Shown piece after piece: positions 29,279 through 52,840 of a DNA stretch of 64,000 nt; the first letter of the stretch is position 1, and each line of letters starts with the position of its first letter. The DNA is taken from contig CM061141.1 of NCBI GenBank assembly GCA_030789695.1, positions 196,923,689 through 196,987,688 of the forward strand. The letters are read 5' to 3'. Under the pieces are notes generated by a model. That model searched no databases. It saw nothing but the letters and a program-made list of their open reading frames with translations, and was not told the origin of the DNA. Made by a program: the position numbers and the translations under genes. Source of the DNA: Scilla litardierei (taxonomy: Eukaryota > Streptophyta > Magnoliopsida > Asparagales > Asparagaceae).

Positions 29279-31719
29279 TGTTGCGGATGTATGCCCTCGA
29301 GGCAATTTATCTTTGTGTATCTATACAAACATCTTGTTCAAAATTACAGTAAGCTGTATGGTAAGAATTTATCTAAGTTAAATCATAATGTAGTTATCAT
29401 TAGTAATTAACTTAGGTAAAGTCTTGAGACTTAATGCAAGGTCAAACATGTATCGAGATGAGTATCTCGATAATAGAGAAATGTTTGATCGTCTGTAGCA
29501 TAAGTCTAAAAAGGTTCGTGGTCATAGATGTTTCGAGAAAAGGATATCGAAACATCGGATAGACCATTGTGTCTTAGTCTTCACCGTATAGCGGTGACGA
29601 TGATCTCATGATCGTTTGACTTGGCGAAGTCAAAGACAAGACACATGTGCTCATTAGAGAATGAGTTCACTGAACGACCCACAAGAGTTATCATATGGTT
29701 ATGATTGACAACTTTGTCAATGATAACTCTTAGTGATGATATGCAAGTTGGTGTTTCACTTGAGGTCATTGTACGAACCTGTGCGTGAATGGTGTCACTT
29801 TGATCATTAACCTAGCTTCAAGGCAAGGCCGATCGAAAGGTCTTTGGTAGGGTGACATTTGAAGCGTACAAGGAGAGTAATGACCGAAATAGGATTCGTC
29901 TCTCCTGGTCAATGAGAGTTAGTGTCGTAGAGTTTGTTTGGCCTTTAGTAAAAACTCTGGAGAGAGTATGTTGGAAGTTATCCAACATTATTTGACTAAA
30001 GATCGAGGGAAACTAACCGAATTCAAGTTATTGGGGTTGACAGTTTGACCGTACCCTAGACTTGAATTAAACGACATAGTTTAGACGAAGAGACTAAAAC
30101 TACAGAATTCATCACGGAAACAGTCAGGGTGGTCCCGACAATGCTCATGTCGATGAGTCAACCACATAATTATGATACTGAAACAGGGACGGCAACTGCC
30201 GCTCGTGGTCACTGACGTATATGGCTTCAAGCCTAACCTGTAGTAGGGTCAGGCTGTATGGTCTCACACAAAGTGCGACCTTCATCTAGTAATAGGTAGA
30301 ATCATTAGGGAGAATTATTTGCATTTGATGCAAGGGATAGAAAATTTCATTTGATGCAAATGAAAATTTTAAGCCTATATAAGGACCAATTTGCATATTA
30401 TGCAAAAGGGGTAAAATGTGTCTTAAATTGTTTAAGACCATATTTAATATAATAAATGCATGGAAAAGTTTATCTGTAAGACAGGAATGTCCCGCTCTAA
30501 ACACAGATTCGAACGGCGTCCAAATCAGACGCCAAGTGCCCAAGTTACGCACAAAACAGCTCAAAGGGGTCTTACTCATGCCTTAACTGGGCATGGGTCG
30601 GATCAGACTGACCCAGGCCAGACCATCTGGGTCTGGCCTGGGCGTCAGGCCAGCCTGGGCCAGGGGCCCTGGGCGCCCTGGGCCGTGCGCCCTGAGCTCC
30701 AGGCATGGGCACCTGGCGCCTGGGTGCCAGGCCAAGCGCCCAGGCTGGGCGTGCCCATGCTGTGTGCACACAGACCACGCATCCAGCCTGGTCTGGGCTC
30801 GCCCTGCTGGTGCAGTGGGCCCCACCCGAACTGGGTTTCAGAACCTTAAGGCTGTGCAGATTTTGAGGGCTGATTTTGGACGAAAATCACGCCTTGGGCT
30901 GATCTTTAGGCGATCAATTGGAGGGTCAAACGGACTCCGATTGACTCGTCTGTTTTTCCTATGCGTTCACCTTTGAACACCCTTCGATTTGATAGGTTGT
31001 GTCTATCATAAAGCTCAACGGTAAGGGAGTTAAAATTCACGGAAGTTTGGCCTTTGTGAAAGGCAAACTAAATTGAATTTATTAACTCCAAACTTTAGTC
31101 CCACATCGGAATTTGAGTAAAGGGGAGGGGCCAGCCGCCTATATAAATAGGGGTCTGCTCCCCTCCTTAAAAGTCGTCCCAAGCTCTAGATCTAAGCGGC
31201 TCCCATAACTGTTGGAGCATGCTCGGATCTAGGCTTAATTAAATATTCTCTTCTCCCTATAATTTCTGCCTTACTCCCAAGGGGCTCTAGCAAAGCCACG
31301 AAGGGGTTCGGATCTGATCCGAAATCTTGGCGAAGGTTCACACTCGGGTGAAACTTTCTTTGGCTTGTGGTTGGCTTGGCGACAAGAGGATTGCTCGCCT
31401 CGGGTCGCGGAGCAGTTTGGCGCGGGACGGGGAGCGACGCGGAAGACGGTGTGGTACACCTTGCCTGAACAAAGGCAAGGTTCCGGGTATGTGAATTTAA
31501 TTAGCTTTCCTTTAATTTAATCGCAGTAGTTTAGATCCATCTTGTGGTGGTTAGATCCACCCAAGTCGGCAAAGATCATGGCTAAGGGTCTTGAACCTTA
31601 AGGCTTCGTTAAAAATAGTTTAACGAGTTAAATTTTTCCGCTGCATTCTTTTCGCTCTTTGGTCCATCCGACTTAGGACGACAATAGATTTGTGCCCTGA
31701 GGGTCTATAAAACCCAATA
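29279..31719 (+). repeat. 3' LTR of Copia A
   Basis: It starts TGTTGCGGATGTATGCC and ends AACCCAATA (degenerate CA end), 2,441 bp. It aligns with 14037-16559. Confidence 0.9.
31140..31149 (+). promoter_or_regulatory. TATA box in the Copia A 3' LTR
   Basis: TATATAAATA in the context GCCGCCTATATAAATAGGGG, shared by the LTR fragments at 42425 and 62244. Transcription would start a few tens of bases on. Confidence 0.7.
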
Positions 31720-31724: not shown

Positions 31725-33163
31725 TAGCCTCATTGTCAAGCTAGATCAAGTATAGTATCGGATCTAGCTTCGTTGTCAAGCTAGATAAAGTATGGGCGTC
31801 TAGGCGACTATCATGTCACCGCCTAGTCTCTTTTGCAAAAATTCACGGCCTAAACATGGATTAACAATAATCTGAGCAAGTTTCACGTGCCTGAAATGAT
31901 GTCCGAAATCCTCAGTTCAACAGTCCAGAATCTCATATGTGCTCAACAAACATCACCAACCTACAGTCCTATGTTATTAATCTTCAATTAGTGATTTAAT
32001 CAAAAGCAATGTAATTACAGTTTTTATCTTGTTTAACAGGCGGTCTGTGGGTTCCTACGGGTCTGGATATACCTCAACACGATGCGAGAGTGACACTGGC
32101 GTCGGGTAGCAACGTCAGGGGTTGGACTTCGGTAGCGAGTGAGGTACGGCAACAACTAGAGACAATAGTAACACGACGTGCAAATGGCAGCAAGCAAGGG
32201 GAGTTGCGGCCTGTCGTCGGGTTGCGCGTGGCAACGGTGCAAGGGAGCATGGCAACGGCACAAGGAAGGCACGGCCTGGCCATGGGTGAAGGAGAAGCAA
32301 ATGGAAGTTTTTAATGGGCAAGGGGCTGTTGTGCAGTTGTTGCGGCTTAGGGGAAGCGTGTGGCCTGTGGAGAGGAGCTGGATGTCGCAAGGGGTTTGAA
32401 GGGCTGCAGTAGGTGGCCGGGGTGTTAGGGGGGTGTTGTGCGTGAGTTTTAGGAGGGGAGCTGCGAGATTTTGGAGGAGATCGGCAGTTTTGGTGGAGCC
32501 GTGAGTTTTGTGTGTGGGGATTTGGGGAGAAGAGGTAATGGGGATGATGCGTGGAGGAGGGCCATCGAGAAGAGGTCAGGCCGTCAGTTTAGGGTGGAGG
32601 CCGGCAAGTAGGGGGTGTCGGCCGTGAGTTCTATGGGTGGGGGAAGGGAAAACGACAGTATTTGTGGCGCAATGGCAATTTTTAGAGGATATGGGTGGGT
32701 GTTTACGGTTTATAGAGGAGGAGGAGGCGAGCTAATCGTGGAGGTGCGTGGCCGGAGCTAGGGGAGAGAGGGTGGCTGGCGGCTAGGGCAAGGGGCTGAT
32801 GGGATGGAGACTGCGTGAGGATGGAAGACCTAGGGGATGCTGTGTGTGAGTTGTGTTTCAAGTTGATGGGTTTGCTATATGGGGTAGATTTGGGGTACAC
32901 TTAAGGTGATTGGAGAAAGAGTGTGTAAGAGATGGAGGGTAGATTTAGTGTGACGAATAGCTAGGAGAAATATCATGTGAAACGTATTATATCCTAGTGA
33001 TTTGATTTGATTATTTAATTAGGGTTAAGTCTAGGCTAATTACAGATTAAAGGTGATTAGTGTGAAATATCAGTCTAATGGTGTCCGATAAATACAAGAA
33101 AAATATCGGGACGACCGTGTCGACGGAAGAATCGATACTACTATGGTCGATCACGGGCTAGGT
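31725..33163 (-). repeat. LTR B of the LARD, segment 2
   Basis: It resumes LTR sequence exactly after the GGATC duplication and aligns with 8011-9447. It ends at CTAGG (33159-33163), where Athila A inserted. Confidence 0.85.
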
Positions 33164-34888
33164 GATTCGGGTTCAATATTACATATTTAACCCCCCATTT
33201 AGCCCTATTTTGTGCTCATGTGATGCTACATTGTTCTCTAATTCAAACGTATTTTGTACACAATTATTTATTAGAGAAAACACTCTATTTGAGCACAAAA
33301 CAGCAATTAATGGAGTATCTCTGCACTTTTTATATTTTTTGTAGCTTGGTCTCGATCTTACGATTCCAACGACTACTTATTTGTATTTTTCTGAGATCTG
33401 TGCTAATTACTGTGAATTTTTGAATGCAGAATACCAATTAAATAGGGAAATACGCACGAAATACGGCGTAAATATGAAATACGGGACACGTGGCACTCAT
33501 CCGTGCAGTCCCGCCAGATCGAACGGCCCAAAACAATGGACGACGTGGCCATTTCCCAACCGAGCGATCGCCATCCTACGGCCACAAACACTCCCGCATT
33601 TGAATCATAAAGCAAGCGACGTGGCCGAATCCAGTTCGTTGGATGATGATCCAACGGCTATCGCACGGAGCTGAGAGCGAAGCGGAGCGATGTCGACGCG
33701 GTCGAATGCAAGCTGTTGGATTCTAATCCAACGGCCATCAGTGCGACGAAACGAAGTGACAGCGGGTGAATCTTAAAGCAGAATGAGCGGGCGAGATCTA
33801 ACGAAGCTTAGATCGGACGGTCAGTATTCACCCCGACCCGAATACGGATGCGGATGCGGGCTTCGCACGAAATTTGAAGAACACGTGGCGTCCTCCAGTG
33901 CAATCCCGCACGATCCTACGGTCCACATTTGCTCCGATCAAGATCTGCGGCTCGGATGCGTTCGGATAGCGGATTTCAAGCGGGTTTGAAACCGTTAAGC
34001 ACCCCAAACCCGTAATGCCTATTATTTAAGCGTATTCTAAGGTTTTTGGGCGTAGTATGGGCGTATTGGAGCACCTAGGAGCCGAATTTCCCCTCTGAAA
34101 AATTCTGTAAATTTCCAAAGGCTGTTCTTCAGTTTTCCAGAGAGTTTTGAGTCTTAACATGGAGATTTGGTGATAGTTTCTTAAACTCATACCCCGTATT
34201 TGGGTGTTTTTCATCGTATTTTGCTATTAGAACTATGTATTTTGCTATGATCATTGTTTATTTCTGCATTATGAGTAGCTAAATCTTATTTGTGCATGGT
34301 ATGGAGTAGTTAGGGGATGTGAATCGTATTTGTTTGGTTGAATATCATCGTGCTTAATCGATAATGTCGCTAAAGTTGTAGTTTTTATTATTAAATCCTC
34401 TCTTTCATCTTCCAAAAGAAGTGATTGAGTTGATGATCACCCCACAAGGGTGAGCTTTGATCTATCCAAAAGAGAGTTTTTTACCGTATTTGTAGGATTA
34501 TAACTTTAGCAACGATTTAATTCATATTGTGCTTGAACCCCCAAAAGGGTATCTTCCGATGAATCGCTCCCAAAAGGAGGATTTATTGAGTTATATTTAA
34601 TCAACCAACGTATACGAATCACCGATCCTAACGAACCCATACCATGTGCATATTTCTCATACATACTTTCATACACGACTTTTTTTTTTGTTCGCATTGT
34701 TCACCACGATCAACTCCATTCACATCACCATCATTATTGAAGTGGTTAGTTTCTCTTTGTTGGATTTCTATTCGATTTGAGCTGTGGTTGCAACAGATTT
34801 CCTCCCGAGGATTCGACATCTGGACACCCAGATTATATTACTTGTTCGGACTCTTGCGCTTGAGAGAAGCACTATTTTGGGCCTACCA
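33164..34888 (+). repeat. 5' LTR of Athila A
   Basis: It runs from TGATTCGGGTTC to GGGCCTACCA, 1,725 bp. Positions 33301-34888 repeat 48161-49734. The TGATTCGGG start is shared with Athila B. Confidence 0.9.
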
Positions 34889-34894
34889 TGTTTT

Positions 34895-34912
34895 TGGCGA
34901 CGTTGCCGGGGA
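34895..34912 (+). other. Primer binding site of Athila A
   Basis: TGGCGACGTTGCCGGGGA differs by one base from TGGCGCCGTTGCCGGGGA, the usual Athila/Tat primer site (a tRNA-Asp type in the literature I recall). It is six bases inside the LTR end. Confidence 0.85.
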
Positions 34913-35074
34913 GAACGGTTTGTTACTACGGTTTATTTCATACAGAAGACCTTCGGTGAGATCTTTCCACTTTGTTGTATATAATTTTTGTTTGCTTTCA
35001 TATAAAAAACATATTTGTGCTAGTTTATGTGGCATAGGACTCCTAGGACACATAGGTTGACTCGACATTTTGAT

Positions 35075-36202
35075 ATGGCTAATAATAATATGGATGAAAA
35101 TTTTAGCAACAATAACGAGAATAATGCGCAACCTGGAGTTCCTAGAACTGTAAAAGATTTACTCAGACCCACTAGGACTAGGACAGCTTCATGCTTTGTT
35201 TTACCTACCGATGCAAATTCTTTCAATTTTAAACCTGGGGTGATCCAACTCTTACCCACCTTTCATGGGTTAGACAAGGAAAATCCATATCTTCATATTA
35301 AAGGATTTGAGGAGGTATGCTTGACATGCTTTGATGGAAAAACTAGCGAAGATACGGTATATCTTAAACTGTTCCCATTTTCATTGAAAGACAAAGGTAA
35401 AAATTGGTTGAATGCATTGCCATCATGTTCTATTACTACATGGATTGATTTGCAGGCTAAATTTCTAAAGAAGTTTTTTCCTATCCACAGGACACAGGGA
35501 TTGAAGCGGCAGATCATGAACTTTGCCCAGAAAGGCGAGGAGACATTCTACCAGGCATTTGAAAGGTTCAATGAGCTGTTGCTTGCATGCCCACACAATG
35601 GCTTTGACAAAAGCAGGATTATTGGCTTCTTCTACGATGGACTGCAGTCGCAGATGAAGCAATTTATAGAGATGATGTGCAATGGAGGATTCTTTGATAA
35701 AGAGCCAGATGAAGCTTGGACGTACCTGGAGGAGATAGCAGAAAATGCGCAGACATGGGACACTACTTAAGACTACGAGAGAGGGGCCACTCAGCACCAT
35801 CTCAGCCTACACGAGGAGTGGTATTCAATTTGAAGCCAGAGGATGCACTGGAGGCAAAGATGGAGGCCATGATCACGAACTAGCTTTATGCCATGAATTT
35901 GAAAGAGGCCAAGGCAGTTGAGATAGAGCAAATTTGTGCACTTTGCGACGTTGGTGGCCACGACACTAGTGCTTGTCCTACACTTCCAGTTTTGAAGAGC
36001 ATGCTAGGCAATCCAACGGGGGTGAATCAAGTGTCATCAAACTACCAGAACTTCAATTCCAACAATAAGGGGTGGCGCAACAATCCAAACTTAAACTGGG
36101 GCCCCAATCAGTAACCTCAGCAGCAAGCTCCACCGCCATTCAGACAAAATCAATATAACAACAATTATCAAAGGTGGGAACCAAAGGAGGGACCATGAGC
36201 CA
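35075..36202 (+). pseudogene. Athila gag with stops and frameshifts
   Basis: Gag forms the particle core. I take the ATG at 35075 (MANNNMDENFS) rather than the upstream in-frame ATG at 35027, because it follows the leader and starts a typical Asn-rich Athila N-terminus. The Retrotrans_gag domain follows (PTFHGLDKENPYLHIKGFEE, YLKLFPFSLKDKGKNWLNAL, FLKKFFP, FYQAFERFNELLLACPHNGF). A TAA at 35768-35770 ends this frame, and a frameshift near 35785-35805 moves the rest to another frame, which has a TAG near 35881. A CCHC knuckle (CALCDVGGHDTSAC, 35935-35976) is intact. Another TAA (36112) and a shift precede the Gln-rich stretch. Confidence 0.93.
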
Positions 36203-38951
36203 GTGCAACAACAGCAGATGCAACCATTTGGTGATGCGCTTCAGCAGCTTATTCAATTACAGCAAGCCCAAATGCAGCAACAACAGGCTCAATTTCATGC
36301 TCAGCAGACTCAAAATCAACAGATGAGTGAGAGCTTGGCGAGGCTTACAGCAACATTGGAGAAAGGTAAGCTTCCATCTCAGTCAATTCCAAATCCTAAT
36401 ATGGGCTCATCTTCTTCTGCAGGTAACAATATGAAGCCGTGCCAAGCTGTGTCCACTTTGAGGAGTGGAAAAGAGATTCAGAAGCCTGACCTACCAAGCA
36501 GAGAAGCTGAGCAAGAAGAGGGAATTCTGATCCAAGAAGAGGAAATTCAAGAGCAAGAGTAGGTGCAGGAAAAGAGCACGGAAGTGGGTTTGAGCAAAAA
36601 TTTCATTAAAGAGAAGGAACCCGCAGCATATGTACCTGCAGCACCTTTCCCTCATCGGCTACTTCAGAAAAACAAAGATAGGTATCAAACTGAGATTCGT
36701 GAAATTTTTCAGAAGTGCCAGATAAATATTCCATTGCTTGATGCTATTAATCAAATACCTGCCTATGCTAAATTTCTGAAAGACTTGTGCACTGTTAAGA
36801 GAAAATTGAATGTGAAAAAGAAAGCATTTTTGACTGAACATGTTAGCTCTATTGTGCAACAAAATACACCACCTAAATTTAGAGATCCTGGATCACCCAC
36901 CATCACTTGCACCATTGGCACTAAAAAGATTGGAAATGCTTTATTGGATTTAGGTTCTAGTGTCAATATCTTGCCATATCCTATTTTTGTGCAGCTTGGG
37001 TTAGGACAGCTAAAGCCTACATCTGTTATATTGCAACTAGCTGATAGATCTATTAAAGTTCCAAAGGGATGCATTGAGGATGTCCTTGTTCAGGTGGAAA
37101 AATTTTACTACCCCGCAGACTTTATAGTTCTAGACATCCAAGGACCCCAAACTGCCAATGCTACTCCTATCATCCTAGGTAGACCATTCCTAGCGACACG
37201 CAATGCTTTAATAAATTGTAGGGATGGTCAACTGAAAATTACTTTTGGCAACATGACTTTGGATTTGAATATTTTTAATACTTGCAAGTTGCCACATGTG
37301 GATGATGAGATTGAGAGGGTGCATATGATTGATTCATTGGTGGATGATTATATTTGTTCTGAATTTTGTGATGATGCTTCTATTGTTGAGACTATTATTG
37401 ATGATTCTGATGACATCTCTTTTATGCAGGAGAATGTGAAGGATCTTAACGCAGTATGTGAGCCTAGGTTAGAGGCTTTGCCACCTAATGCATCAATTCA
37501 AATTTCATCAGAGGTGGAGGATCCAAAGCCCGAATTGAAGCCACTTCCTGAATATCTCAAGTATGCCTTCCTGGGAAACGAAAACAGCTTCCATGTGGTA
37601 ATATCTTCTAAACTCTCTTTAGAACAGGAAAGCTCTTTACTTGAAGTGCTAAGAAAGCATAGAGGTGCTATTGGTTGGTCCATTGCTGATATTAAAGGTA
37701 TTAGCCCTATTGTATGCATGCATCACATTTATTTGGAGGATGACTCCAACCCCACTAGAGAAATGCAACGTAGGTTAAATCTAACATTAAAAGAAGTGGT
37801 GAAAGGCGAGGTTTTAAAAATATTGGATGCAGGCATTATATATCCAGTTTCTGATAGCAAGTGGGTCAGTCCTACACAGGTTGTTCCTAAAAATTCTGGG
37901 CTCACTGTTGTTAAAAATGAGAATAATGAACTTATCCCTGTTAGAGCCACCACAGGATGGAGGATATGTATAGACTATAGGAAGTTGAACTCCAGAACTA
38001 GAAAAGACCACTTCCCTCTTCCATTTCTTGACCAGATTTTAGAGAGAGTGGCTGGACATGAGTACTATTGCTTTTTAGACGGTTATTCAGGTTATTATCA
38101 GATTGAGATTGCACCAGAGGATCAGGAAAAGACTACTTTACTTGTCCCTTTGGTACTTTTGCTTTTAAAAGAATGCCGTTTGGTTTATGTAATGCTCCAG
38201 CTACTTTTCAGCGATGCATGCTCAGTATTTTTGATGATATGGTTGAGAAAATTGTTGAGGTATTTATGGATGATTTTTCAGTATATGGTAGCTCTTTTCA
38301 TGATTGTTTAACTAACTTGGCTCATGTTCTTGACAGGTGCATTGAAAAGAATCTCCTATTGAATTGGGAGAAGTGTCATTTTATGACCACAGAGGGACTT
38401 GTCCTCGGTCATCTGGTTTCTAAAGATGGTATATAGGTAGACAGAGCCAAGGTAGCGGTAATTGAGAAGCTACCAAGTCCTAAATGCGTGAAGAACATCA
38501 GATCATTTTTGGGACATGCAGGATTCAATAGGCGATTCATCAAAGATTTTAGCGCTATATCTCGCCCTCTTTGCAACTTACTAACTCTAAATGTGGATTT
38601 TATTTGGACACCTGAGTGTCAACATTCTTTTGATACTTTAAAGAAGTTGCTGATTTCTGCTCCCATTTTGCAGGAACCGGACTGGTCCCTACCATTTGAA
38701 ATAATGTGTGACGCAAGCAATGACGCAGTTGGTGCAGTCCTAGGCCAAAGAAAAGACAAAGTTCCAGTAGTTATTTACTACGCCAGCAAAACATTAAATG
38801 ATGCTCAGAGGAACTATACAACCACGGAAAAGGAGTTGCTGGCTGTAGTATTCGCGTTGGAAAAATTCAGGAGCTATATTTTGGGATCACCTATTTTGAT
38901 TTATATTGATCACTCTGCTTTAAAATATTTATTGTCTAAAAAAGATGCTAA
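36203..38951 (+). pseudogene. Athila protease-RT-RNase H, broken; right part cut by the CACTA
   Basis: This part of pol matures the polyprotein and copies RNA to DNA. A Gln-rich gag/pol linker (36203-36559) ends at TAG 36560-36562. The same frame then continues with a retropepsin domain whose active site DLGSS is intact (Asp at 36947) and with ILGRPFLATRNA. RT follows (RICIDYRKLNSRTRKDHFPL, YCFLDGYSGYYQI). A one-base loss near 38140, after EDQEKTT, shifts the frame. The new frame has MPFGLCNAPATFQRCM, the catalytic FMDD box (38263-38274) and GHLVSKDGI, then a TAG at 38434. RNase H (MCDASNDAVGAVLGQR, TEKELLAVVFALEKFRSYIL) stops at SKKDA, where the CACTA inserted. Identity is certain; activity is lost. 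Confidence 0.95.
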
Positions 38952-39190
38952 CACTACTACAAAAAAACGCTTAGATAGCGCTTTTTTTTACACTTGCATA
39001 GCGCTTTTAAGCGCTGTCTAAGCTACCGCTATTGTAGCTTGGATAGCGCTTTTAAAAGCGCTATCGTAGTATTTTACTAAGATAGCGCTTTTAAAAGCGC
39101 TATCCAAGTTACCGCTATTGTAGCTTGGATAGCGCTTTTTAAGCGCTATGCAGGTGGGTTACTAAGGCGCTTTTGAAAGCGCTATTCATG
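38952..39190. repeat. Left terminal and subterminal repeats of the CACTA element
   Basis: After the terminal repeat come about seven palindromic units of the type GATAGCGCTTTTAAAAGCGC, several joined by TACCGCTATTGTAGCTTG. Such arrays are where CACTA transposase subunits bind in known elements; here that role is inferred. Confidence 0.85.
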
Positions 39191-39193
39191 AGC

Positions 39194-39334
39194 AATAGCC
39201 ACGGCCAGGCCGTGGCTATTGAGCAATAGCCACGGCTATAGAGAAATAGCCACTGCCAGGATGTGGCTAATGCACAATAGCCACGGCCAGGCCGTGGCTA
39301 TTGCGCATTAGCCACGGCCAGTCCGTGGCTAATG
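39194..39334. repeat. Five AATAGCCACGGCC palindromes
   Basis: Five imperfect palindromes of about 27 bp (AATAGCCACGGCCAGGCCG and its complement) spaced about 30 bp apart. They differ from the AGCGCT palindromes and are absent from the right end. Confidence 0.9.
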
Positions 39335-40731
39335 TTTAGTTTTTTCAAAAAAAATAAAAAATCATCACGAAAAATAGCCATTGCATCTTGTGCATTATCA
39401 ATTCGTGCACATGTATACATCGAAACATCAAAATACATAAGAAAATGAGGGAAAGAGGAGTTTATGTATACATCCACCAAAACAACAAAATACATAAACC
39501 TTATTTCATTGGAGCTTAACCGTTGGCATGCAGGCACACAAAGAACAATGTTTTCCAACACCAGCATATCATTTCAAGTTCTACGAAGTTTCTGATAATG
39601 TTTTCAAACCCTAAGCTCTACTCCTACATGCAGCATCACAAACTCTTGGGAGCTTACTTCTTCAGCGTGCTTCATATTGAACGACCCTAAGCTCTACTCC
39701 TACGTGCAGCATTTTTACTTCTTCAGCGTGCTTCATATTGAACGACTGCAGAAGAAGAAAAAAGAACAGTACAAATGCACATTAAGACAGGAAGACATGG
39801 TAAAACATGATGTGAAAAGAATCAAGCAATAAGGTTCGATGAAAATTAGGTTTGTTTTCTGAACGGCGGCTTCTGATGATATTCTGGAGTAAAATTCATC
39901 AAAAATTTGTGGAATGTTGAAATGCTAGATGCAATCAACCAACCATCTATTTTTCATACAAATAACAAAAGCACACTCTTAGCATATAAAAGCATGTAAT
40001 CATATTGGAATATAGAATGTGTTGTACATTTTGACGGCTGGTTGAATCCTGATGCAAATAGGTAAATAAAGGGTATAGCTGTTCCTGGGATAAGTGATTA
40101 AACAATAGATTTTATTCTTTTTAAAGAAATTTTTCCCTTTTGATTAGCTGAGGCCCAGTGGTACAAGAAGTCAAGGAGAGGATTAGAAATGGATTAGAAC
40201 ACTCCATGGTTTCTCAATACAGAAGCATACCAATTTTCAGGGCCTAACCTGGTACATGAATCTCTAAAGCACATGTAAATAAATATGCAGTCCCCACCCA
40301 CAAAACACCAAGCAGGGGCACACACGCGCATGCAAATACAAAAATACAATTTGGGGTGAGCAACAATCAGCCAGATCAGTTCGGTTTAGTTTCCGTGGGT
40401 CCGACTAGGTTTGGTCAGTTTATGGCCAAAAAAACAGTTGCATTTGGATATTGGGTTATATAACTATTATATATTATACCGATACACTAATTACCAATAT
40501 ATTATTATTATTATACACTAATTAATAATTAAATACTCTTAAATACTAATACATCTAAAGATAAAAAAAATAAAATCATAAAGAAAAACAACTAGCTCCC
40601 GCCCAATCCTCAGGCGCCCCCCTTTGGGCATGTTTGGAAGGTGAATTGAAAACCTTGAACTTAAATCAAAATACATAAGAAATGATATGCTGGTGTTGGA
40701 AAACATTGTACTTAAACCTTATTTCATATGA
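39335..40731. other. CACTA interior without recognised gene
   Basis: AT-rich sequence. 39541-39577 and 40677-40713 form an inverted repeat (ATGTTTTCCAACACCAGC and its complement). 40440-40560 is a TATTATTA-type low-complexity run. Confidence 0.5.
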
Positions 40732-40863
40732 CAACAAAAACCTGATTCAGAGAATTTGAATGCCTCATGGGCGGATGTGAAAGAGTTAAAGTTAGTGTAT
40801 AACAATGATCAAAGTGCCTATGAAGCCCTTTATCAAGGAACCAAAGTAGAAAACATTAAATAG
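40732..40863 (+). other. Small open stretch, possibly a captured last exon
   Basis: A 43-codon stretch (KPDSENLNASWADVKELKLV...YEALYQGTKVENIK) ends in TAG. Its composition is protein-like (Trp, acidic/basic mix), unlike its surroundings, and an AG (ATTCAG) could be a splice acceptor. I do not recognise the gene. It lies on the opposite strand to the other captured fragments. Confidence 0.3.
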
Positions 40864-41167
40864 TTATATTTACAAGAAGGTTTAAGTATGGGTGGAACAT
40901 AACAAGATTGCTGTTATGATTTGCGGCATACACAATAAAAGTATTTCATTGGCCCTTTGCAATAGCTTTGATATTCTGTGAGATTAGATTCTTATTTGCA
41001 CACCACTAAACTGGATTGCCATATCATCTATAATGTCACATTGTTTTATGACTTTCCAATACATTTGAAATTTGGGAATCAGTTACACCCTTAGAAAGGA
41101 AGAGAACATACATAAAAATTATATGTGAATATAAAGCAGTTTCCAAGTCAGAGACCATAACGGTTAC

Positions 41168-41690
41168 CTCTGCAGTGCGCACTTCCTGAGCATACGTTGG
41201 TGAAACAGTTGTAACGATGTTAGAGAATACAATAGCAGCCTGAAATAGAAAAAGGGTCAACTTTCTGTAGATAGTGCCACCTTAAAATACATTTTCAGGA
41301 AAGGTGAAAAATTCTGAAGATGCTACCTTAACAGGATTAATAATGTCATGCCCTGAATTGTCTTGCATCCTGTCTGGTCTCTTTAGATGTCGGACATCAA
41401 GACCACAAGAGGACAACTCTGAGGCCGCTGTTGTTCCCTGATACTCGAAATTGTGACAGGTAAAGCAGATTCTAGCTGAATTAATAAATCCTTTAGCTGC
41501 ATATACATCCCAATAAAGTGGTGCCTGAATGAACAAATATTGAATTATTAGACCAAAACGTCAATGAACGTAGATAGGAACATTGTTCAGAAAACATCAG
41601 GATAATGGTGTTTATGCTTACAACAAAAGCAGTCTGCCAATCATGACAATGGATTATATTAGGTTTCTTCCCAGATTGATGAAGAAATTC
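41168..41690 (-). pseudogene. SS4: Captured starch synthase IV fragment (three exons)
   Basis: Starch synthase IV is a plastid GT5 glycosyltransferase that helps start starch granules. Three minus-strand segments with plausible splice sites match its catalytic N-lobe. Segment one is 41690-41622 (EFLHQSGKKPNIIHCHDWQ then TAFV), followed by GTAAGC. Segment two is 41524-41327, 66 codons (APLYWDVYAAKG, ARICFTCHNFEYQGT, LDVRHLKRPDRMQDNS), bounded by CAG and GTAGCA. Segment three is 41239-41168, 24 codons (AAIVFSNIVTTVSPTYAQEV), bounded by TTTCAG and GTAACC. Phases agree (0/0). Introns are retained, so capture was at DNA level. The next exon expected in the family (GGxGLHSTLN) is not found. Only about 5-10% of the protein is present. 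The family call rests on remembered conservation. Confidence 0.85.
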
Positions 41691-41799
41691 CCAGATTGAC
41701 TAAGATGAAGCTGCAGATTTGGATCGCTGTACAATCAAATTGTTAATTTTTTTTCATTTTTAGATCTCTGTACAATTTTTGAAGGCAAAACTTAAACAT

Positions 41800-42160
41800 G
41801 TTTAAATCCTTTTAAAATTAGTAGCTTGCAATTTTTACGTATACTTATGTACGATAAAAATATATGTTATAGTACTTGTAAATACGATCGTTTTGACATC
41901 TTGTTTGTAGATTTCTGACGTACGGTTTGCCCGGGATAAATCTTTGAACGTGGGTATTATTAATAATCTCTTGTTTTAAAAATCCTTTTAAAATTCGTAC
42001 CCTTTGATTTTTACGTACACTAACGTACGATAAAAATATATGCCATAGTACTAGTAAATACGATCATTTTGACACTTTGTTTGTATAATTCTGTCGTACG
42101 GTTTGTTCTAAACAATTCTGTCGTACGGTTTGTTCTAAACAATTCTGTCGTACGGCTCAG
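41800..42160. repeat. Direct repeat of about 170 bp plus a 27-bp tandem repeat
   Basis: 41800-41930 and 41975-42110 share TTTTTACGTA..CGATAAAAATATATG and TACGATC..TTTTGACA. At the right end AATTCTGTCGTACGGTTTGT is repeated in tandem about every 27 bp (three copies to about 42157). Confidence 0.8.
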
Positions 42161-42164
42161 TTTT

Positions 42165-43055
42165 TGCGAAAAACTAGCCTAGGGCTGATCTTTGGACACT
42201 CAATTGGAGGGTCATACGAACTCCGATTGACGAACGGTTTTTTCCTATGCGTTCACTGTTGAACGCTCGTCGTATTGATAGGTTGTATCAATCTTGAAGC
42301 TCAACAGTGAGTGAGTTAAAATTCACGGAAGTTTGCACTTTGTGAAGTGCAAACTAACTTGATTTTAATTAACCCATTAAATAGTCCCACATCGGATTTT
42401 GAGAAAAGGGGAGAGTCCGCCGCCTATATAAATAGGGGTCTCCCCCTTTCTCAAAACTCGTCCCAAGCTCTAGATCTGAGCGGCTCTCGTAAATGTTGGA
42501 GCACGCTCGGATCTAAGCTTAAATTAATATTTCTCTTCTCCCTAAATTTCTGCCTTACTCTTGCGGGCTCTGGCAAAGCCGCAAAAGAGTTCGGATTCTG
42601 GATCCGAAATCTAGGCGGAGGTTTCACTCGCGTGAAACTTTCTTCGGCGGTGGTTGGCTCGGCGACACGGGGATTGATCGCCTCGAGATGCGGAGCGGTT
42701 CGAGGGGCGGTTTGGGGATCGGTTCAAGGAGCGGCTCGGCGTGGGACCGGAGCAGCTCGGAAGACGGCGTGGAACATCTCGCCTGCCCCAGGGCTGAGAT
42801 TCCGGGTATGTGGTTAAAGTATTTTATTAGCATTAGTTTAATTTAATCGCAGTAGGCTAGATCCTTCTTGGGATGGTCAGATCCATCCCAAGTCGGCATA
42901 GATCTTGGCTAAGGGTCTTGGACCTTAGGGCTAAGTTAAAAATGTTTTAACTGCATGTTAATTTAGATTAACTAGTTTTTCTTCCGCTGCAAATAATTTT
43001 TGTGTCTATGTTCCGTCCGACTTAGGACGTGCATAGAGTTTTTGTGCCTTAAGGG
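42165..43055 (+). repeat. Copia LTR fragment inside the CACTA element
   Basis: It matches the 3' two-fifths of the Copia A and D LTRs, closest to D (CTCGCCTGCCCCAGGGCTGA). It includes the TATA box and runs to the TTAAGGGACC region, then stops before the LTR terminus. There is no primer site or second LTR, so it is a captured or truncated piece. Confidence 0.85.
42425..42434 (+). promoter_or_regulatory. TATA box of the captured LTR fragment
   Basis: TATATAAATA in the same context as the Copia LTR core promoters. It could drive transcription in + direction, opposite to the captured gene pieces. Confidence 0.5.
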
Positions 43056-44121
43056 ACCGCAAATTCCCTTCAAGAACTTCACTCAATCAGCCAGGAGGAA
43101 CATCTATCAGCTAACTTTTACACTTGCAAGAAAAGGACATATTAGTAACAAAACAGAAGGCTTAAATAGAGAAGCACAGAAGGCAGATCTACCAAAAAAT
43201 ACAAGGAAGTGGACCCTCTAACCCAAAAGCGTCGCATAGGAGTCCCAAATGTTCATGAGGAATGAGCTAGAAGGACAATGACACATGACATGCATAACTC
43301 TAAAACAATTTTGCAAACATGCTATCTCTGGCAATTACTCCATATCCCAGACTAGATACCAAGAAAGATAAAGCATGCAAATTTGGCAGCACCTTGTGAA
43401 ATAATCAAAAGATCGTCCAAAAATGCATGTCAAATTCAAACCAAAAAGTGCAGGGTCATATAATATTGTAGAATATTAAATCACATACACAGATCTGTTA
43501 TTTTCTGTTTTAAAAAAAAACCATAGCCAAGCAAAGACAATGAACTATACAAGACACCTAACCTAAAACCATTGCAACCTTTCATGAAAAAATATCAATC
43601 ATGAACAAGAAGAAAAAAATAATGAACATCAATTGCACACATCATAATGCAGGTTTTCATCTAGAACAACTAAAACATAATGCAGTCTTCATCTAGAACA
43701 ACTAAAAAACAAAATGCATATGTTCTCACCAATAATTTTTATTACTCGATTAGGGAGATAGGAAATAAAACAAGAACGAATGAAGGCATGCAATGGAATA
43801 AATCACAATTGGATTTTCTGTATGGGTCAATATAAAAAGAACCAAACATGCCTTTCAATGCCATGATATACCTTGTCACCGTAATCATCTTAAATGGCTC
43901 CCCCATTAATAACAGTGCCCCTATAACTAAGAATTAAGGATATATTATCAGATGACACAAATTGAAAGTGCTCATGTACACAGATTGAAAGTGCTCTACT
44001 TGCAATTATGACACAAAAGTATATATTATCAAATGGCTCCTCCATTAATAACTGTGCCCCTATAACTAAGAATTAAGGATAAAAAGAAAGAGAGACGATG
44101 CGTTTTTCTTTTGTTATTTAC
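43056..44121. other. CACTA interior between LTR fragment and polymerase exons
   Basis: No recognised gene. 43897-43945 and 44034-44083 form a direct repeat (GGCTCCTCCATTAATAACTG; CTATAACTAAGAATTAAGGA). The right end may be truncated intron 4 of the polymerase fragment. Confidence 0.5.
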
Positions 44122-45004
44122 CTCGACAACTAGCTACCATAGTAGGAAGTGCAAATACAATCTTGAGGAATGGATGTGACTGATGCTACTGATAATACAT
44201 AATGCTCTTCTTGTGAACCAACTCGACACGCCTAATGAACCTTGGGACATTATTGTTCCTGTTGGATTCCCTCATTCTCCCCTAATAATTAAGAAATAAA
44301 TGTTAAGCAAAAAAGGAATTTACCTCAAAATTAGCAGTCTTGGACATAAAGAATGGACAATACTAACCTCTAATGTTTGCTGGAATCGTGAAATATCATC
44401 GGGTCCCATCCCAACAGGACAGCTGATATAGAAATAGGGCTCGAATCCGTGAACATGACAACAGACACTGTGCCCTACATTTCCCAAATCCAGCAATTTA
44501 TCAAACCAATATAGATAAATTCAAACATTTATTCAAAAAAAACAATAAACCGACTAACCTTCTTTAGTTACTCCAAAGACCCTAAGAATTGCGGCTGGCC
44601 CTGACGAATTCGGTATCAATGCCTTGTGGCTATCACCAATGATGTAATCGATCTCCAGTTGCTGAAAAACTACAATACAGAAGAACCTCAAAAATGACCA
44701 AAGATCCGATTTTGGGGATGAACAGATAGAGATTGAAGAGAATTACCTTTGCTTTGAGAGAGAGAGAGAGGTGTGCAGGGGACAGAGAAGGGCGCTTCCG
44801 TTTAGAGAGGCGAGACGCTAGGGCTTCGTCTTGAAGAAGTATCAGTGCCTCTTCATCTTCCTCGTATTTGATTAGGGTTTCTTCCAAAAACACGTCCTCG
44901 TCCATCATCTCGTCTTTGATCGGGTTAGGGCTTTGGCTGTTGTTGCCGACGTCATTGCTCGGCTGGAACCGCTTCGCGGGGTTCGACGCAGCGGCCGGCG
45001 TCAT
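44122..45004 (-). pseudogene. POLD1: Captured 5' end of DNA polymerase delta catalytic subunit (four exons)
   Basis: DNA polymerase delta is the nuclear replicative polymerase. Four minus-strand exons with GT..AG borders fit its N-terminal region. Exon 1 is 45004-44747 (MTPAAASNPAKRFQPSNDVG, EDVFLEE, ALASRLSKRKRPSLSP). Exon 2 is 44661-44559 (QLEIDYIIGDSHKALIPNSS). Exon 3 is 44474-44368 (HSVCCHVHGFEPYFYISCPV). Exon 4 is 44281-44122 (GRMRESNRNNNVPRFIRRVE, KIVFALPTMVASCRG). Exon lengths of 258, 103, 107 and 160 bp keep one frame. An in-frame TAG follows SIMYYQ in exon 4. The exonuclease and polymerase domains are absent. About 100 bp of GC-rich leader upstream of the ATG (to about 45105) seems to have come with it. 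Identification rests on remembered family conservation and is strong. Confidence 0.92.
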
Positions 45005-45117
45005 TGCTCGGCTGGATTTTTCCTTTTCGGGTTTTTGGCAAGAATTCTCACGAGTTGGCTTCGTCTTTCCACTCGCCGCCAGATGGAAAAGAGAGAGGCC
45101 ATGTTAGGAAATATAGG

Positions 45118-45397
45118 GCTTGGGATTTAAGCGCTATCCAAGTAATTATATATAAGTATATTTTTTAATAAAAGTGTTTACGTAACGATTAGTTACATAG
45201 CGTTAACAAAAAGCGCTATGCAAGGTATTACTTGGATAGCGCTTTAACAAAAAGCGCTATCTAAGCGATTATTAACTTAATTTTGATTTATTTTTATTTT
45301 CTATAAGTGCAGAAGCGCTATACAAGAGCTCACTTAGATAGCGCTTTTTAAAAGCGCTATCTAAGTGGCGTTATCCAAGCCCAAATCTGTAGTAGTG
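45118..45397. repeat. Right subterminal and terminal repeats of the CACTA element
   Basis: About six AGCGCT-containing units (TTAGATAGCGCTTTTTAAAA; AAAAAGCGCTATGCAAG) lead to the terminal GTAGTAGTG. They match the left-end family. Confidence 0.85.
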
Positions 45398-45400
45398 TAA

Positions 45401-46880
45401 GCCTCGATTGATACGATGGATTTTATTGTTGCAGGAGTTCAATGTCATAATCAAGGACAAGAAAGTCATGGAGAATCTACTAGCTGACCACTTATCACGA
45501 TTGACAGTAGGCCTTGATTCAGCAGATGTTCCTTTGAAGGACTCCTTTCCTGACGAGCATCTTTTTAGCATTTCCACCTTTCCATGGTATGCTGATATAG
45601 TAAATTATCTCGTGACTGGTAAGACCCCTGACACTTGGTCTCTTCAAGACTTTAACAGGTTCAAGTATGAGGTAAAATATTTCTTCTTTGATGATCCGTA
45701 CCTCTATAAATATTGTAGTGACCAAATAGTTAGGAGATGCATTCCTGACCATGAAATAACCAGTGTGATACAATTTTGTCATGATGGAGTGTGTGGTGGA
45801 CATTTTTCTCCGAACAAAACTGTGGCAAAAATCTCGTAATGTGGCTTTTATTGGCCAACTATGTTTAAAGATACATTTCATTATTGCAAGACTTGTGCTG
45901 CATGCCAACAATTAGGGGGTATTACTAGACGTAACATGATGCCTTTAAACCCCATTTTAGAAATTGAAATATTTGATTGTTGGGGCATAGATTTCATGGG
46001 ACCTTTCCCACCTTCGTTTGGATATGATTATATATTGGTTTGTATCGATTATGTTTCTAAATAGGTAGAAGCTATTCCTTGCAGGTCAAACGACACTTCC
46101 GTTGTGCTTAAGTTCCTCAAAGAGAACATTTTCTCTAGATTTGGAGTGCCAAAGGCATTGATCAGTGATGGAGGGTCTCATTTTTGCAACCGCATGTTCT
46201 CTACTTTAAAGAAGAGGTTTGGGGTCACATATAAAGTTTCTACTCCATATCACCCCCAAACCAATGGTCAAGCAGAGTTGGCAAATAGAGAGATCAAAGG
46301 AATTCTACAGAAAACGGTGAACCCTTCAAGAAAATATTGGAGTTTGTGCTTACCTTAAGCGTTGTGGGCCTACAGGACGGCCTACAAACCAATTTTGGGG
46401 ATGTCACCTTACCGTCTTGTTTTTGGGAAGTCTTGTCACTTACCTGTTGAATTGGAACATAGATCTTATTGGGCTATAAAGAAATTGAATTTTGATACTG
46501 ATTCATCTTTTTCCTCTCGCAGGTTACAATTGTTGGAGCTAGAGGAGTTGAGGAGAAATGCTTATGACAACGCTAAAATATTGAAAGAAAGGATGAAATC
46601 CATCCACGACATGATGATCTTGAGGAGGTAGTTCACCCCACGCCAAAAAGTTCTTCTATACAATTCCAGGCTACACATCTTTCCCGGGAAGCTTCGCTCT
46701 AGGTGGTATGGACCCTTCACAGTCAAAGAAGTTTTCCCACATGGCGCAGTGCTATTATTGAATGAAAAAGATGGAAGTGAGTTCAAGGTGAATGGCCAAA
46801 GATTGAAGCATTTTCACGAGCCTTGGACCAAGGAAGCGAGCACCATGGATCTCACAGACCCACCTTCGGGTGGGAACTAA
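45401..46880 (+). pseudogene. Athila RNase H end and integrase, four in-frame stops
   Basis: This resumes pol right of the CACTA (RWILLLQEFNVIIKDKK, ENLLADHLSRL). Integrase follows in one frame: the zinc-binding HDGVCGGH..CKTCAACQ, then the catalytic core with Asp at 45990 (GIDFMGPF), Asp at 46167 (SDGGSHF) and Glu at 46275 (NGQAELANREIK), so all three catalytic residues remain. The C-terminal part reads [19 protein letters not shown]. Stops lie at 45837 (TAA), 46062 (TAG), 46356 (TAA) and 46629 (TAG). The end is approximate. It could not make a functional enzyme. Confidence 0.93.
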
Positions 46881-48160
46881 TCAGGTGTGTTCTTTCCATA
46901 ATTCCCTCTTCCTAACATTGAGGAAAATGTCTATTTTAAGTTGGGGGGAGGGTATAACTTTTAGGATTTTTATTTTTCTCTTTTTTCTGTTTCTTTTAGG
47001 ATTTTATTTTTAGTTCCCTTTTTGCATTGAAATTTTTTTTTGAGTATATCACCAAAATCTATTTAACCTAGAGATGACCCTCATGTGATGAAATTTCTCG
47101 AAGTATACTCACCATCGTACACATATGATTTATTTTCCTCCACCACTATTGTTAAATATTTCAGTCTCATTTTACATGAATGCGAGTACTTGTGGTAAGT
47201 TCCTTTGATACATCTCAATGGCAAGATTAATTGACGACTTAATGAATCTAGAAATTATGGATTAGCAAGTAGTATGCTTTCATTGGAACACACCAAAGTT
47301 CATGCATCAATAATTCATAAAATAACTGGAGCATTGTTTTTTATCTCGTACTCATCGCTATTTGCATGCTTGGTATGATTTTCGGTAGAAAAATGTACCC
47401 CGTCTTTGGAAATGATTAGGATAACCCATTCTTGTGAAAGATTAAAGAAAAGGAAGCTATCTTACTAAGTTGTTTATGCACACACAAAAGAGGAAAAAAA
47501 TGAGATAAATGAAGAAAAAAGAAATGAATAAATGTATTACCAAAGAAATAACTTGGTTGGCTCGAGTAGTACAGTTCGAGGGGCCCTTCTTGGCCTAATG
47601 CCCTATTATCGTCTGATTTGGGAGCCATTGACCGGAACCTCAATCATTTGATGGAGCGATCCAAGTTATATATTTTTCTGCGAATGTTGCTAGATGCGCG
47701 TTGCGGAACTATTTAAAAAAGGGCGAAAGAAAATCGAGAATAAGTGTGCATAATTAGCAAGGCAAGAGAATTTCCAAGGCTTAAAGAAAACACAAGATGT
47801 GGTGTGATATCTTATGAATGAATATTGACATGTGTATGTTTTAATACCATTTTATTTTTGATGCTTGCTTTGCATGAAACATCTACGCGCCAAGTTAGAA
47901 CATTTGATTGAACGGTGTGAGCCATTGATTTTGTACACTACGAACTATGAAGTAATGAATAGTGAAGATGAGTCTATTTTATAACCATTTGAGATAATTG
48001 ATCTTCATTTTTAGACCCACAAGCACCATTATTTTTAAGATTGAAATATTGACATTAGTATGTGGTTAACTTCTTTTGTCGTAGTAGTATGGTGGTGAGA
48101 GATTTGAGATCTGATAAGGTGATCTAGGTGCATTTTTGATGTCGCTCTTTTTGCTAGAGA
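46881..48160 (+). other. Athila A 3' non-coding region with internal purine tract
   Basis: Starts with ACATTGAGGAAAATGTC and the purine tract AAGTTGGGGGGAGGG (46938-46952), which Athila B shares. The rest has no gene. An A/G-rich stretch lies at 47485-47540. The sequence at 48100-48160 does not match the LTR, so the expected LTR start is missing. Confidence 0.6.
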
Positions 48161-49734
48161 CAGCAATTAAATAGAGTATTTCTGCACTTTTTATATTTTC
48201 CTAGTTTAGTCTCGATCTTACGATTCCAACGACTATTTATTTGTATTTTTCTGAGATCTGTGCTAATTACTGTGAATTTTTGAATGCAGAATACCAATTA
48301 AATGGGGAAATACGGCGTAAATACGAAATACGGGACACGTGGCACTCATCAGTGCAGTTCAGCCAGATCGAGCGGCCCAAAACAACGGACGACGTGGCCA
48401 TTTCCCAACCGAGCGATCGCCATCCTACGGCTACAAACACACCCGCATTTGAATCATAAAGCAAGCGACGTGGCCGAATCCAGTCCGTTGGATGAGGATC
48501 CAACGGCTATCGCACGGAGCTGAGAGCGAAGCGGAGCGATGTCGACGCGACCGAATGCAAGCCGTTGGATTCTAATCCAACGACCATCAGTACGAGGAAA
48601 CGAAGCGGCAGCGGGCGAATCTTAAAGCGGAACGAGCGGGTGAGATCTAACGAAGCTTAGATCGGACGGTCAGTATTCACCCCGACCAGAATGCGGATGC
48701 GGATGTGGGCTTTGCACGAAATTTGAAGAACACGTGGCGTCCTCCAGTGCAATCCCGCACGATCCTACGGTCCACATTTGCTCCGATCAAGATCTGCGGC
48801 TCGGATGCGTTCGGGTAGCGGATTTCAAGCGGGTTTGAACCCATTAAGCACCCCAAACCCGCAATGCCTATTATTTAAGCGTATTCTAGGGTTTTGGGCA
48901 TAGTATGGGCGTATGGAGCACCTAGGAGCCGAATTTCCCCTCTGAAAATTTTTTTAAATTTCCAGAGGCTGTTCTTCAGTTTTCCAGAGAGTTTTGAGTC
49001 TTAACTTGGAGATTTGGTGATAGTTTCTTAAACTCATACCCCGTATTTGGGTGTTTTTCATCGTATGTTGCTATTAGAACTATGTATTTTGCTATGATCA
49101 TTGTTTATTTCTGCATTATGAGTAGCTAAATCTTATTTGTGCATGGTATGGAGTAGTTAGGGGATGTGAATCGTATTTGTTTGGTTGAATATCATCGTGC
49201 TTAATCGATAATGTCGCTAAAGTTGTAGTTTTTATTATTAAATCCTCTCTTTCATCTTCCAAAAGAAGTGATTGAGTTGATGATCACCCCACAAGGGTGA
49301 GCTTTGATCTCTCCAAAAGAGAGTTTCATACCGTATTTTTAGGATTATAACTTTAGCAACGATTTAATTCATATTGTGCTTGAACCCCCAAAAGGGTATC
49401 TTCCGATGAATCGCTCCCAAAATGAGGATTTATTGAGTTATATTTAATCAACCAACGTATACGAATCACTGATCCTAACGAACCCATACCATGTGCATAT
49501 TTCTCATACATACTTTCATACACGACTTTTTCTTTGTTCGCATTGTTCACCACGATGAACTCCATTCACACCACCATCATTATTGAAGTGGTTAGTTTCT
49601 CTTTGTTGGATTTCTATTCGATTTGAGCTGTGGTTGCAACAGATTTCCTCCCGAGGATTCGACATCTGGACTCCCAGATTATATTACTTGTACGGACTCT
49701 TACGCTTGAGAGAAGCACTATTTTGGGCCTACCA
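48161..49734 (+). repeat. 3' LTR of Athila A, 5'-truncated
   Basis: It aligns with 33301-34888 and ends GGGCCTACCA. The first 137 bp of the LTR (TGATTCGGG...) are absent. Confidence 0.9.
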
Positions 49735-51334: not shown

Positions 51335-52840
51335 TGATTTGGGATATAAATTGCATATTTTCCCCCTATTTCTGGGCATTTTATGTGTATATCATGTTAT
51401 TTTGGCTTTAATACGGGCGTATGTGTGATATTGTGTAATATTGAAGCTTATTTGTATTTTATACATAAAATGTGGTTTTCATGGAATAATTTTTGCTCCC
51501 CGTAATTTTCAGGTACTTCTGGGATTTTTCTGGATTTTCTGAAATTTTTCCAGAATTTTTGGAAGCTTCCAGCTATTTTTCGGGAATTATTAGAGCAAGA
51601 GGAGTGTTTCTGGAATTCGAAAAAGAAAAAAAGAAACAAAAAAATTATTAAAGGCCCGTAGGCCTTGCGGAGCGGGCCGCCGTGAGTATTAAAAAAACGA
51701 ATTTTTAAAAAAACACCTCGAAGGTGGGCTGGCCCAGCGGCCGGCCCGCTCTTCTTTTATTGCCCGAGAGCGGGGCGGGCGGAAGCGGGCCGGGGTCCGA
51801 CCCGGCCCGCTCCGCTGCACTTCAGCCCCCAAGCGGGGCGGGCGAGATGTGGGGCCGGATCCGACCCGATCCGGCCCCCACGCTGCTGCTGCGCGCTTAG
51901 GTGATGCGGGCGGGTCGGGGAGCTGAAAACCCCGACCCGCAACCCATTATTTTGGGTTTTCTGTGCGCCTGAAGCGAAAAATTGGGTAGCTCTACTGTAG
52001 CTTGGTTTTTTCGAGTTTGGCTGCTATTTTTGGTTCTTTGTTTTAGGGTTTTGAGAGTGCTTGGAGGGGGAGGAGGCCATTAATGATGGAGGAGCTTGGA
52101 GGGAGTGCCCAAGGGAGAGGGAAGCTCATTTCTTGAGAGATTGGTGATCTCTTCCCTATCTTTTTGTGTAATTTTTGCATTTCTGTTTTGTATTGAACAT
52201 TGGATGAATTTTTCTATGAATTCCATCTTATTTGGTATGATTGAGTAGTGTGGTTGGTGTGGGTTGTGATTCATTATGTTGGGTTGTTAATTTTAGTTCT
52301 AATTGCCTCTTGCACAATTTCATGTTAATGTTGGATGATTATTAGGGCACAATTTCATTGGTAAAGTCCCGAGAGGGCACAATTTGAGAAGATACCATGC
52401 TCATATTTGATTAGTGCTACGATGATACATCCATCCATATTGCAAATTATTGTATTCTTGAATGTTAAATTTTCTGATTGAGTGTCCTTATCCGGATAAT
52501 CAATTGAGTTATTTGCAGGTGATTAGAGATTAATTAACACCAATCTTAGTGAACCCACAATCCATGCTTTCTCGCCTTGCTACCCTAAATCCTCATTTGG
52601 TTCTACAACCCTACCCACTTAGGTTAGAATTTTAGTTTCATCACGGTTTTCACACACTCATCCACCGTTAGCGAGGTAGTTGTAACGCGCTATTTCCTTT
52701 CTTTATCGATCAAATTTTGTGAACATAGAACGACTTGTCCCTGTGATCCAACCCGGTACTCACCGGTTATTTTTATTGCATTGACACTCCTACGCTTGGG
52801 AGTGGAAGGCGTGATCCGTGCGTGTCTTCCGTCACAACCA
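51335..52840 (+). repeat. 5' LTR of Athila B
   Basis: It runs from TGATTTGGGATATAAATT to TCCGTCACAACCA. It contains a GC-rich stretch (51720-51930) of GGCCGG/CCGGCCCGC units. Confidence 0.92.

Follow-up and report, generated by a model that had tools for sequence, protein, structure and literature searches.

A Pack-CACTA transposon of Scilla litardierei with a patchwork interior that includes pieces of starch synthase IV and DNA polymerase delta

A stretch of 64,000 nucleotides from Scilla litardierei (C12:196923689-196987688 of the source assembly; the whole stretch is "the window" below) contains a Pack-CACTA transposon, which splits a Ty3/Gypsy retrotransposon within its RNase H region. 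The interior of the transposon is a patchwork of genomic DNA with matches at four other places in the genome, among them pieces of the genes for starch synthase IV (SS4) and for the catalytic subunit of DNA polymerase delta (POLD1). Assembly by template switching is likely, and we predict that the element can move only with a foreign transposase. We hold this reading, taken as a whole, with high confidence. The element belongs with the Pack-TYPE elements in that no transposase was found in its interior, it holds host gene DNA whose source lies elsewhere, and more than one copy has moved as a unit (two copies were found). Positions given without a contig are those of the window, and the features are collected in Table 1.

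The element and its insertion site

The initial annotation of this DNA had described CACTACTACA terminal repeats, a TAA duplication, AGCGCT arrays and the lack of a visible transposase, and inspection of the sequence bears out each of these. As in other members of the CACTA superfamily, the terminal inverted repeats (TIRs) start with CACTA, the target site duplication (TSD) is 3 bp long, and there are subterminal repeat arrays. The two end zones (526 bp together) hold 17 of the 22 AGCGCT occurrences of the window, with 5 elsewhere in its 64 kb and none in the interior of the element (39200-45120). The GCCACGGC-type array consists of inverted repeats and is present in all 6 of the other fetched members of the family that we looked at. 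The whole or part of the left family end is common to other fetched members, at 80-92% identity. No transposase was found in a Pfam scan of all 45 listed stop-free stretches of at least 44 amino acids in the element, some of which may be truncated where they run past the edge of a listed region; the matches at E up to 0.1 were to Glyco_transf_5 and to three weak unrelated families (best 0.018).

The insertion site can be read as well. If 200 bp of each flank are joined with one copy of TAA, then the join is a single open frame of 133 codons that runs across the RNase H region, and the sequence upstream of the insertion matches the Pfam family RT_RNaseH_2 (6.6e-36). When the join is extended to about 4.2 kb, none of the three frames stays open (62, 66, and 116 stops), which implies that the Gypsy element has itself decayed. 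Its long terminal repeats (LTRs) differ by a Kimura two-parameter distance (K2P) of 0.0379 over 1,574 aligned sites. At substitution rates of 1.3e-8 and 7e-9 per site per year, this gives an age of 1.5 to 2.7 million years for the Gypsy insertion, and the CACTA insertion must be younger because it sits inside the Gypsy element.

For the first 137 bases of the 5' LTR of the Gypsy element (33163-33299; compare 48023-48159), nothing corresponding is present in the portion of the 3' LTR that aligns. Elsewhere the two LTRs show 95.3% identity, and the two copies of the target duplication agree. The difference possibly reflects recombination between elements.

Pieces of two host genes and their source loci

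The presence of intron-containing pieces of SS4 and POLD1 on the minus strand, which the initial annotation had claimed, is supported by protein matches, by consensus splice sites in both pieces, and by source loci elsewhere in the genome. The spliced SS4 exons match Glyco_transf_5 (4e-31) and the starch synthase 4 chain 6gne (6e-59), and 39 of 49 candidates from a protein collection match this piece, with starch synthase 4 among the named plant matches. The POLD1 exons match POL3_N (1.5e-9) and the structure 6s1m (4.7e-25), and 43 of 136 candidates match the piece, with the DNA polymerase delta catalytic subunit among the named plant matches. Protein homologues that extend past the two pieces show no further alignment in the window. 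The spans first given (41100-41720 for SS4 and 44100-45010 for POLD1) thus had the right identities, but the limits set by the donor loci differ (Table 1).

The SS4 donor is on C12, 137 Mb from the element, and is 95.5% identical to the captured piece over 977 bp; this locus also carries upstream SS4 exons. The POLD1 donor, on C1, shows 96.5% identity across 1,031 bp, and its locus continues into the following POLD1 exon, which lies outside the captured stretch. Because both alignments include the introns, it was genomic DNA that was copied, and capture from mRNA was rejected.

We searched the source assembly (3.68 Gb in 7,266 contigs) for relatives of both pieces, and the resulting counts are lower bounds. 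For SS4, 11 candidates yielded 10 matches: the window, C13, and the locus at C12:59.855 Mb have at least 3 each, and C2 has one weak match. For POLD1, all 15 candidates scored as matches, in six places: the window, C13, and C1 have at least 4 each, and single matches lie at two sites on C10 and at one on C9. At C10:46637022, C10:45970311, and C9:53726866, POLD1 exon 4 runs without an intron into exon 5 at about 70% identity, as expected for retrocopies.

The captured SS4 exons remain open. Relative to the donor, the window copy has 0.021 nonsynonymous changes per nonsynonymous site (dN) and 0.034 synonymous changes per synonymous site (dS) over 339 bases, and with so small a number of changes decay is not distinguishable from constraint. 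The POLD1 piece has visibly decayed. The donor gene starts MSGSNSKRRGPPPAAAS, and the captured piece starts inside that run and so excludes the start codon. Exon 4 has a premature TAG that is common to the window copy and to a sister copy on C13 (see below) and that is absent from the C1 donor. Furthermore, since the CT repeat in exon 1 of the window copy is longer than the donor's, the frame is shifted, and the product predicted from the splice sites that the donor supports is just 104 amino acids; in the sister copy, the predicted product is 191 amino acids and ends at the shared TAG. We also considered a start of exon 2 at 44661, which would give an open reading frame (ORF) of 187 amino acids, and rejected it: the donor acceptor is 8 bases upstream and leads to the 104-residue product.

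Other captured DNA and a truncated LTR

The interior matches at least four genomic places (C1, C9, C12, and C13), two of which are recognised genes. Judging from the alignments, there are two captured pieces beyond the two genes of the initial annotation. Inside the piece that matches C9, about 80 bp are duplicated in tandem, and 35 bp of it are found again in inverted orientation, in or near the piece. Among ten ORFs of the C9 donor locus, the only Pfam match was a chromodomain, outside the captured part. For shorter parts of the piece that matches C13, there are further matches on C73 and at two other sites close to C13:608.05 Mb.

The C9 donor includes a 1.16-kb stretch (L045:1275-2432), with GATACCGAT at both borders, that is missing from the captured copy. 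We considered whether this was a template jump and disfavour it: the donor stretch starts CAGGGGCGTAAC and ends GTTACGCCACTG, and GATACCGAT overlaps the borders. It is more likely to be an insertion in the donor, with a hAT-type look.

Between the two gene pieces, as first described, is an LTR fragment. It is missing from the sister copy, and its Copia label comes from a weak match to Retrotran_gag_2 (3.2e-4, which falls short of the curated cut-off) in a related element with about 70% likeness in the LTR. Relatives of the fragment are found in the window at 62009-62842, 15697-16543, and 30874-31703. The fragment is joined at its 3' end to the C13 piece, at TCA/AGAAC, and we found no AGAAC (with up to 1 mismatch) before TG between 40901 and 42400. 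Because there is no matching AGAAC at the other side and the start of the LTR is undefined, we take it to be a truncated LTR and reject an intact solo LTR.

A sister copy with a different middle

When we searched the genome for other copies with the same terminal repeats, we found a sister copy of 6,011 bp at C13:162077288-162083298 (489-6499 of the fetched stretch L009), with another TSD (GTG). It holds both gene pieces, and shares positions 1-2825 (96.0% identical, with gaps counted) and 4502-6446 (98.7%) of the window's element. The middle of the sister copy differs, and one 107-bp stretch of the middle is shared at another position. K2P between the two copies is 0.0070 in the left interior, 0.0106 in the whole left block, and 0.0104 in the right block; that is, at the rates used above, they split 0.3 to 0.75 million years ago.

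The two copies agree with each other against the donor at 35 sites in SS4 and 24 sites in POLD1. In contrast to these shared differences, unique changes are few: 1 in SS4 and 6 in POLD1 for the window copy, and 3 and 3 for L009. The shared differences imply a single capture that was followed by duplication, although some of them may be changes in the donor. Most likely, one assembly came first, and decay, duplication, and the remodelling of the middle followed in that order.

The family in the source genome

To find the family, we took 29 nt of the left end as a search pattern, allowed up to 3 mismatches, and used the reversed pattern as a control. There were 290 forward and 294 reverse matches (584 in all), of which 11 were exact, including the window's own; the control gave 0 matches genome-wide. 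Of 12 stretches of 10 kb that we fetched, 7 contain elements in which both ends are present and the 3-bp flanks are the same, and only L009 carries a piece of SS4 or POLD1 (E up to 1e-4).

In the fetched cases, the family ends enclose other interiors. We compared the interiors of the members other than L013 through L016: those of L010, L011, and L012 are alike, those of L017, L018, and L020 are alike, and L019 shares only the ends. A Pfam comparison of 78 ORFs from L012, L018, and L019 gave matches to eleven families at E up to 0.01, in one ORF each (best 3e-5). These included a kinase, a proton pyrophosphatase, LRR, and RCC1, and no Pfam transposase family was among them. These weak matches only suggest that these members contain other gene fragments. 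A possible start of histone H2A at L012:6855-7256, which was seen by eye, was dropped because it had no match among solved structures.

Two observations concern particular members. L017 and L018 are on two small contigs, their elements are 99.97% identical over 7,768 aligned positions, and their flanks are complementary (AAA and TTT), so they may be one locus that was assembled twice. L013 through L016 are family matches with about 80% identity at the left end and with no second end in 10 kb; they are candidates for longer members that are perhaps autonomous.

Assembly of the element

How cut-and-paste transposons capture gene fragments is an unsettled question. In the scenario that we favour, an element of the family would have been excised, and repair of the gap would have copied stretches from C9, C12, C13, and C1, with switches of template at short homologies. 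The assembled element would then have transposed as a unit at least once, to give the window and C13 copies; the middle would have been remodelled afterwards, with the LTR piece in the window copy; and the gene pieces would be decaying passengers.

The edges of the POLD1 piece are informative here. At its 5' edge, a 23-bp stretch of exon 1 has been copied a second time and joins the donor sequence at CGCCGGC, 7 bases that are common to both sides. At its 3' edge, 19 bp (with a single mismatch) and 51 bp of intron 4 are likewise present a second time. These duplications, and with them the tandem duplication and the inverted 35 bp of the C9 piece, are seen in both copies of the element, so they predate the split. 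Re-copied donor stretches and microhomology are marks expected of repair synthesis that changes template, and at the level of sequence they suggest template switching during repair.

Several points weigh against this account. The re-copied edges could be due to later slippage instead of being part of the capture, and the 3' edge of the SS4 piece is without a clear re-copy. We did not find the downstream SS4 exons in the 4.1 kb that flank the C12 locus on that side, and for that reason this locus is not established as a whole gene. Of the 12 fetched stretches, 4 are without a second end, and 1 has both ends with unequal flanks. We infer the dependence on a partner transposase, and no genome search aimed at a CACTA transposase was made. 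Also, a model published for Arabidopsis explains capture without template switching (PMC8903248, PMC13317346).

In that model, which has also been applied to rice and maize (PMC8903248, PMC13317346), two related elements insert side by side, aberrant excision removes the ends that face each other, and the resulting hybrid moves together with the DNA in between; here this would have to be repeated at several loci. The model would be expected to leave remnants of the facing inner ends. The interior of our element has no AGCGCT and hence no visible remnant of an internal CACTA end, although remnants could have been lost. Furthermore, the four donor stretches are on four different contigs, and donor stretches have been re-copied at the edges of the pieces. 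We consider hybrid excision to be an unlikely origin for this element, though one that deserves to be weighed. The family is a natural system for telling template switching and hybrid excision apart, because the donors, two copies, base-level edges, and several hundred end matches are all available in one genome.

We consider it improbable that the element gives rise to an RNA with a function, be it a chimeric transcript with exons of POLD1 and SS4 in the sense direction or an antisense transcript of POLD1 that starts from a promoter in the LTR and acts on the donor via small RNAs. The captured splice sites are kept, except at the cut 5' sides of SS4 exon A and POLD1 exon 1; the capture edge has gained an ATG that is in frame; a TATA-like CCTATATAAATAG at 42423 in the LTR piece points towards the POLD1 piece; and chimeric transcripts have been reported for Tgm-Express1 and for a Tpn1 element. 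However, exon 1 of POLD1 has a frameshift and exon 4 has a stop, with a short predicted product in the window copy; the LTR piece is missing from the sister copy; and the element is inside a nest of retrotransposons, where silencing is expected. If POLD1 exon 4 were spliced directly to SS4 exon B, SS4 would be out of frame with POLD1. Given the frameshift, the stop, and this change of frame, a chimeric protein is not predicted.

We attach a little less probability again to a stronger version, in which the family builds its cargo by serial template switching that joins DNA from several chromosomes in one event, with the re-copied edges, and the window copy then gained an LTR promoter that drives POLD1 antisense and would place the donor polymerase gene under the control of a transposon. 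Either way, captured pieces with good splice sites could be called as genes, so caution is warranted in gene annotation. Finally, almost no credence is due to the idea that the two gene pieces are parts of adjacent host genes or products of misassembly, with terminal repeats that are there by coincidence: we found no support for it beyond the potential for misassembly in a dense repeat nest, and it is rejected by the same composite on C13 with another TSD, by the in-frame reading of the joined flanks, and by source loci on other contigs or 137 Mb away rather than in genes adjacent to the element.

Comparison to known elements

The initial annotation regarded this pair of genes in one element, with a Copia LTR fragment between them, as new. 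Novelty of the kind of element is not supported: the soybean element Tgm-Express1 is reported to contain fragments of five genes (PMC1947982), and in maize, Pack-CACTAs are described as holding the greatest number of distinct captured loci (PMC8903248). As described in PMC1947982, Tgm-Express1 (from the wp allele) is a 5.7-kb element of the CACTA superfamily that, like ours, includes exons and introns of unrelated host genes with the splice sites kept. Unlike ours, it has five gene fragments, is inserted in a gene, and is shown there to give chimeric transcripts (PMC1947982); our element has pieces of two recognised genes and two unidentified pieces, and is inserted in a retrotransposon.

The Tpn1 family of Japanese morning glory is also similar, in that its members are described as non-autonomous CACTA elements with conserved ends, subterminal repeats, and host-genic interiors (PMC5105172). 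This likeness is by description and not by the sequences of the ends, and the same account presents Tpn1 members as known mutagens (PMC5105172). Captured introns are kept in maize Ds elements that contain filler DNA and gene fragments as well, and replication errors during excision repair are suggested in that report as the cause (PMC3260210). In contrast, Ds belongs to the hAT superfamily, and most elements of that class are given as about 1 kb (PMC3260210).

Compared to the Pack-CACTA and Pack-TYPE elements of Arabidopsis, maize, and rice, what stands out here is that four donor stretches are resolved and that there are two copies with different middles. We searched the literature for CACTA elements with starch synthase or DNA polymerase delta, and the pair was absent from the titles and abstract openings of the matches listed. 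Because each new Pack element is expected to have a new set of donors, this is a further case of a known kind: an ordinary but unusually well-resolved example of a Pack-CACTA.

Table 1. Features of the Pack-CACTA element and of the retrotransposon around it
Feature	Position in window	Strand	Remarks
Host Ty3/Gypsy retrotransposon	33163-49734	+	interrupted by the CACTA element; TSD CTAGG
TSD TAA, left	38949-38951	.	flank comparison
Whole Pack-CACTA element	38952-45397	.	6,446 bp; C12:196962640-196969085 in source genome; TIRs and TSD
TIR, left	38952-38961	+	CACTACTACA
Left family end	38952-39497	+	10 AGCGCT (38977-39183), then GCCACGGC-type array (39190-39340)
Captured C9 piece	39523-40662	+	C9:133328090-133330332, 91-97%; no recognised gene
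Captured SS4 piece	40722-41690	-	donor C12:59854620-59855596
SS4 exon C	41168-41239	-	
SS4 exon B	41327-41524	-	
SS4 exon A	41622-41690	-	cut inside exon
3' part of LTR	42152-43072	+	Copia-type by weak evidence; absent from sister copy
Captured C13 piece	43073-43895	+	C13:608041080-608041898, 96.6%
Second copy of 51 bp of POLD1 intron 4	43892-43942	-	first copy 44031-44081
Captured POLD1 piece	43972-45000	-	donor C1:139492650-139493677
POLD1 exon 4	44122-44281	-	premature TAG at 44186-44188
POLD1 exon 3	44368-44474	-	
POLD1 exon 2	44559-44669	-	donor-supported acceptor, TGTAG then TTTTTCAG
POLD1 exon 1	44747-45000	-	without donor start codon; CT repeat 2 nt longer than in donor
23-bp stretch of POLD1 exon 1, original copy	44945-44967	-	
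Second copy of the 23-bp stretch	44994-45016	-	at capture edge; supplies ATG in frame with exon 1
Right family end	45126-45397	+	7 AGCGCT; 89-91% alike in other members
TIR, right	45388-45397	-	TGTAGTAGTG on plus strand
TSD TAA, right	45398-45400	.	flank comparison

Neighbouring repeats

The window is a dense nest of repeats, and an Rfam search of its 64 kb gave 0 matches at gathering scores. The nesting is deep at 13064-49999, where a repeat, one relative of which lies at 6873-9715, contains first an LTR element (14038-31717, TSD GGATC) and then the Gypsy element, which in turn holds the CACTA element. Nested within 14038-31717 is a minus-strand LTR element (18974-27796) with a weak Copia-type gag match, whose LTRs (18974-21391 and 25379-27796) are 98.1% identical. 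Another pair of LTRs, at 51335-52840 and 55940-57444, is 94.5% identical, and the first of these is followed by TGGCGCCATTGCCGGGGA, a likely primer binding site.

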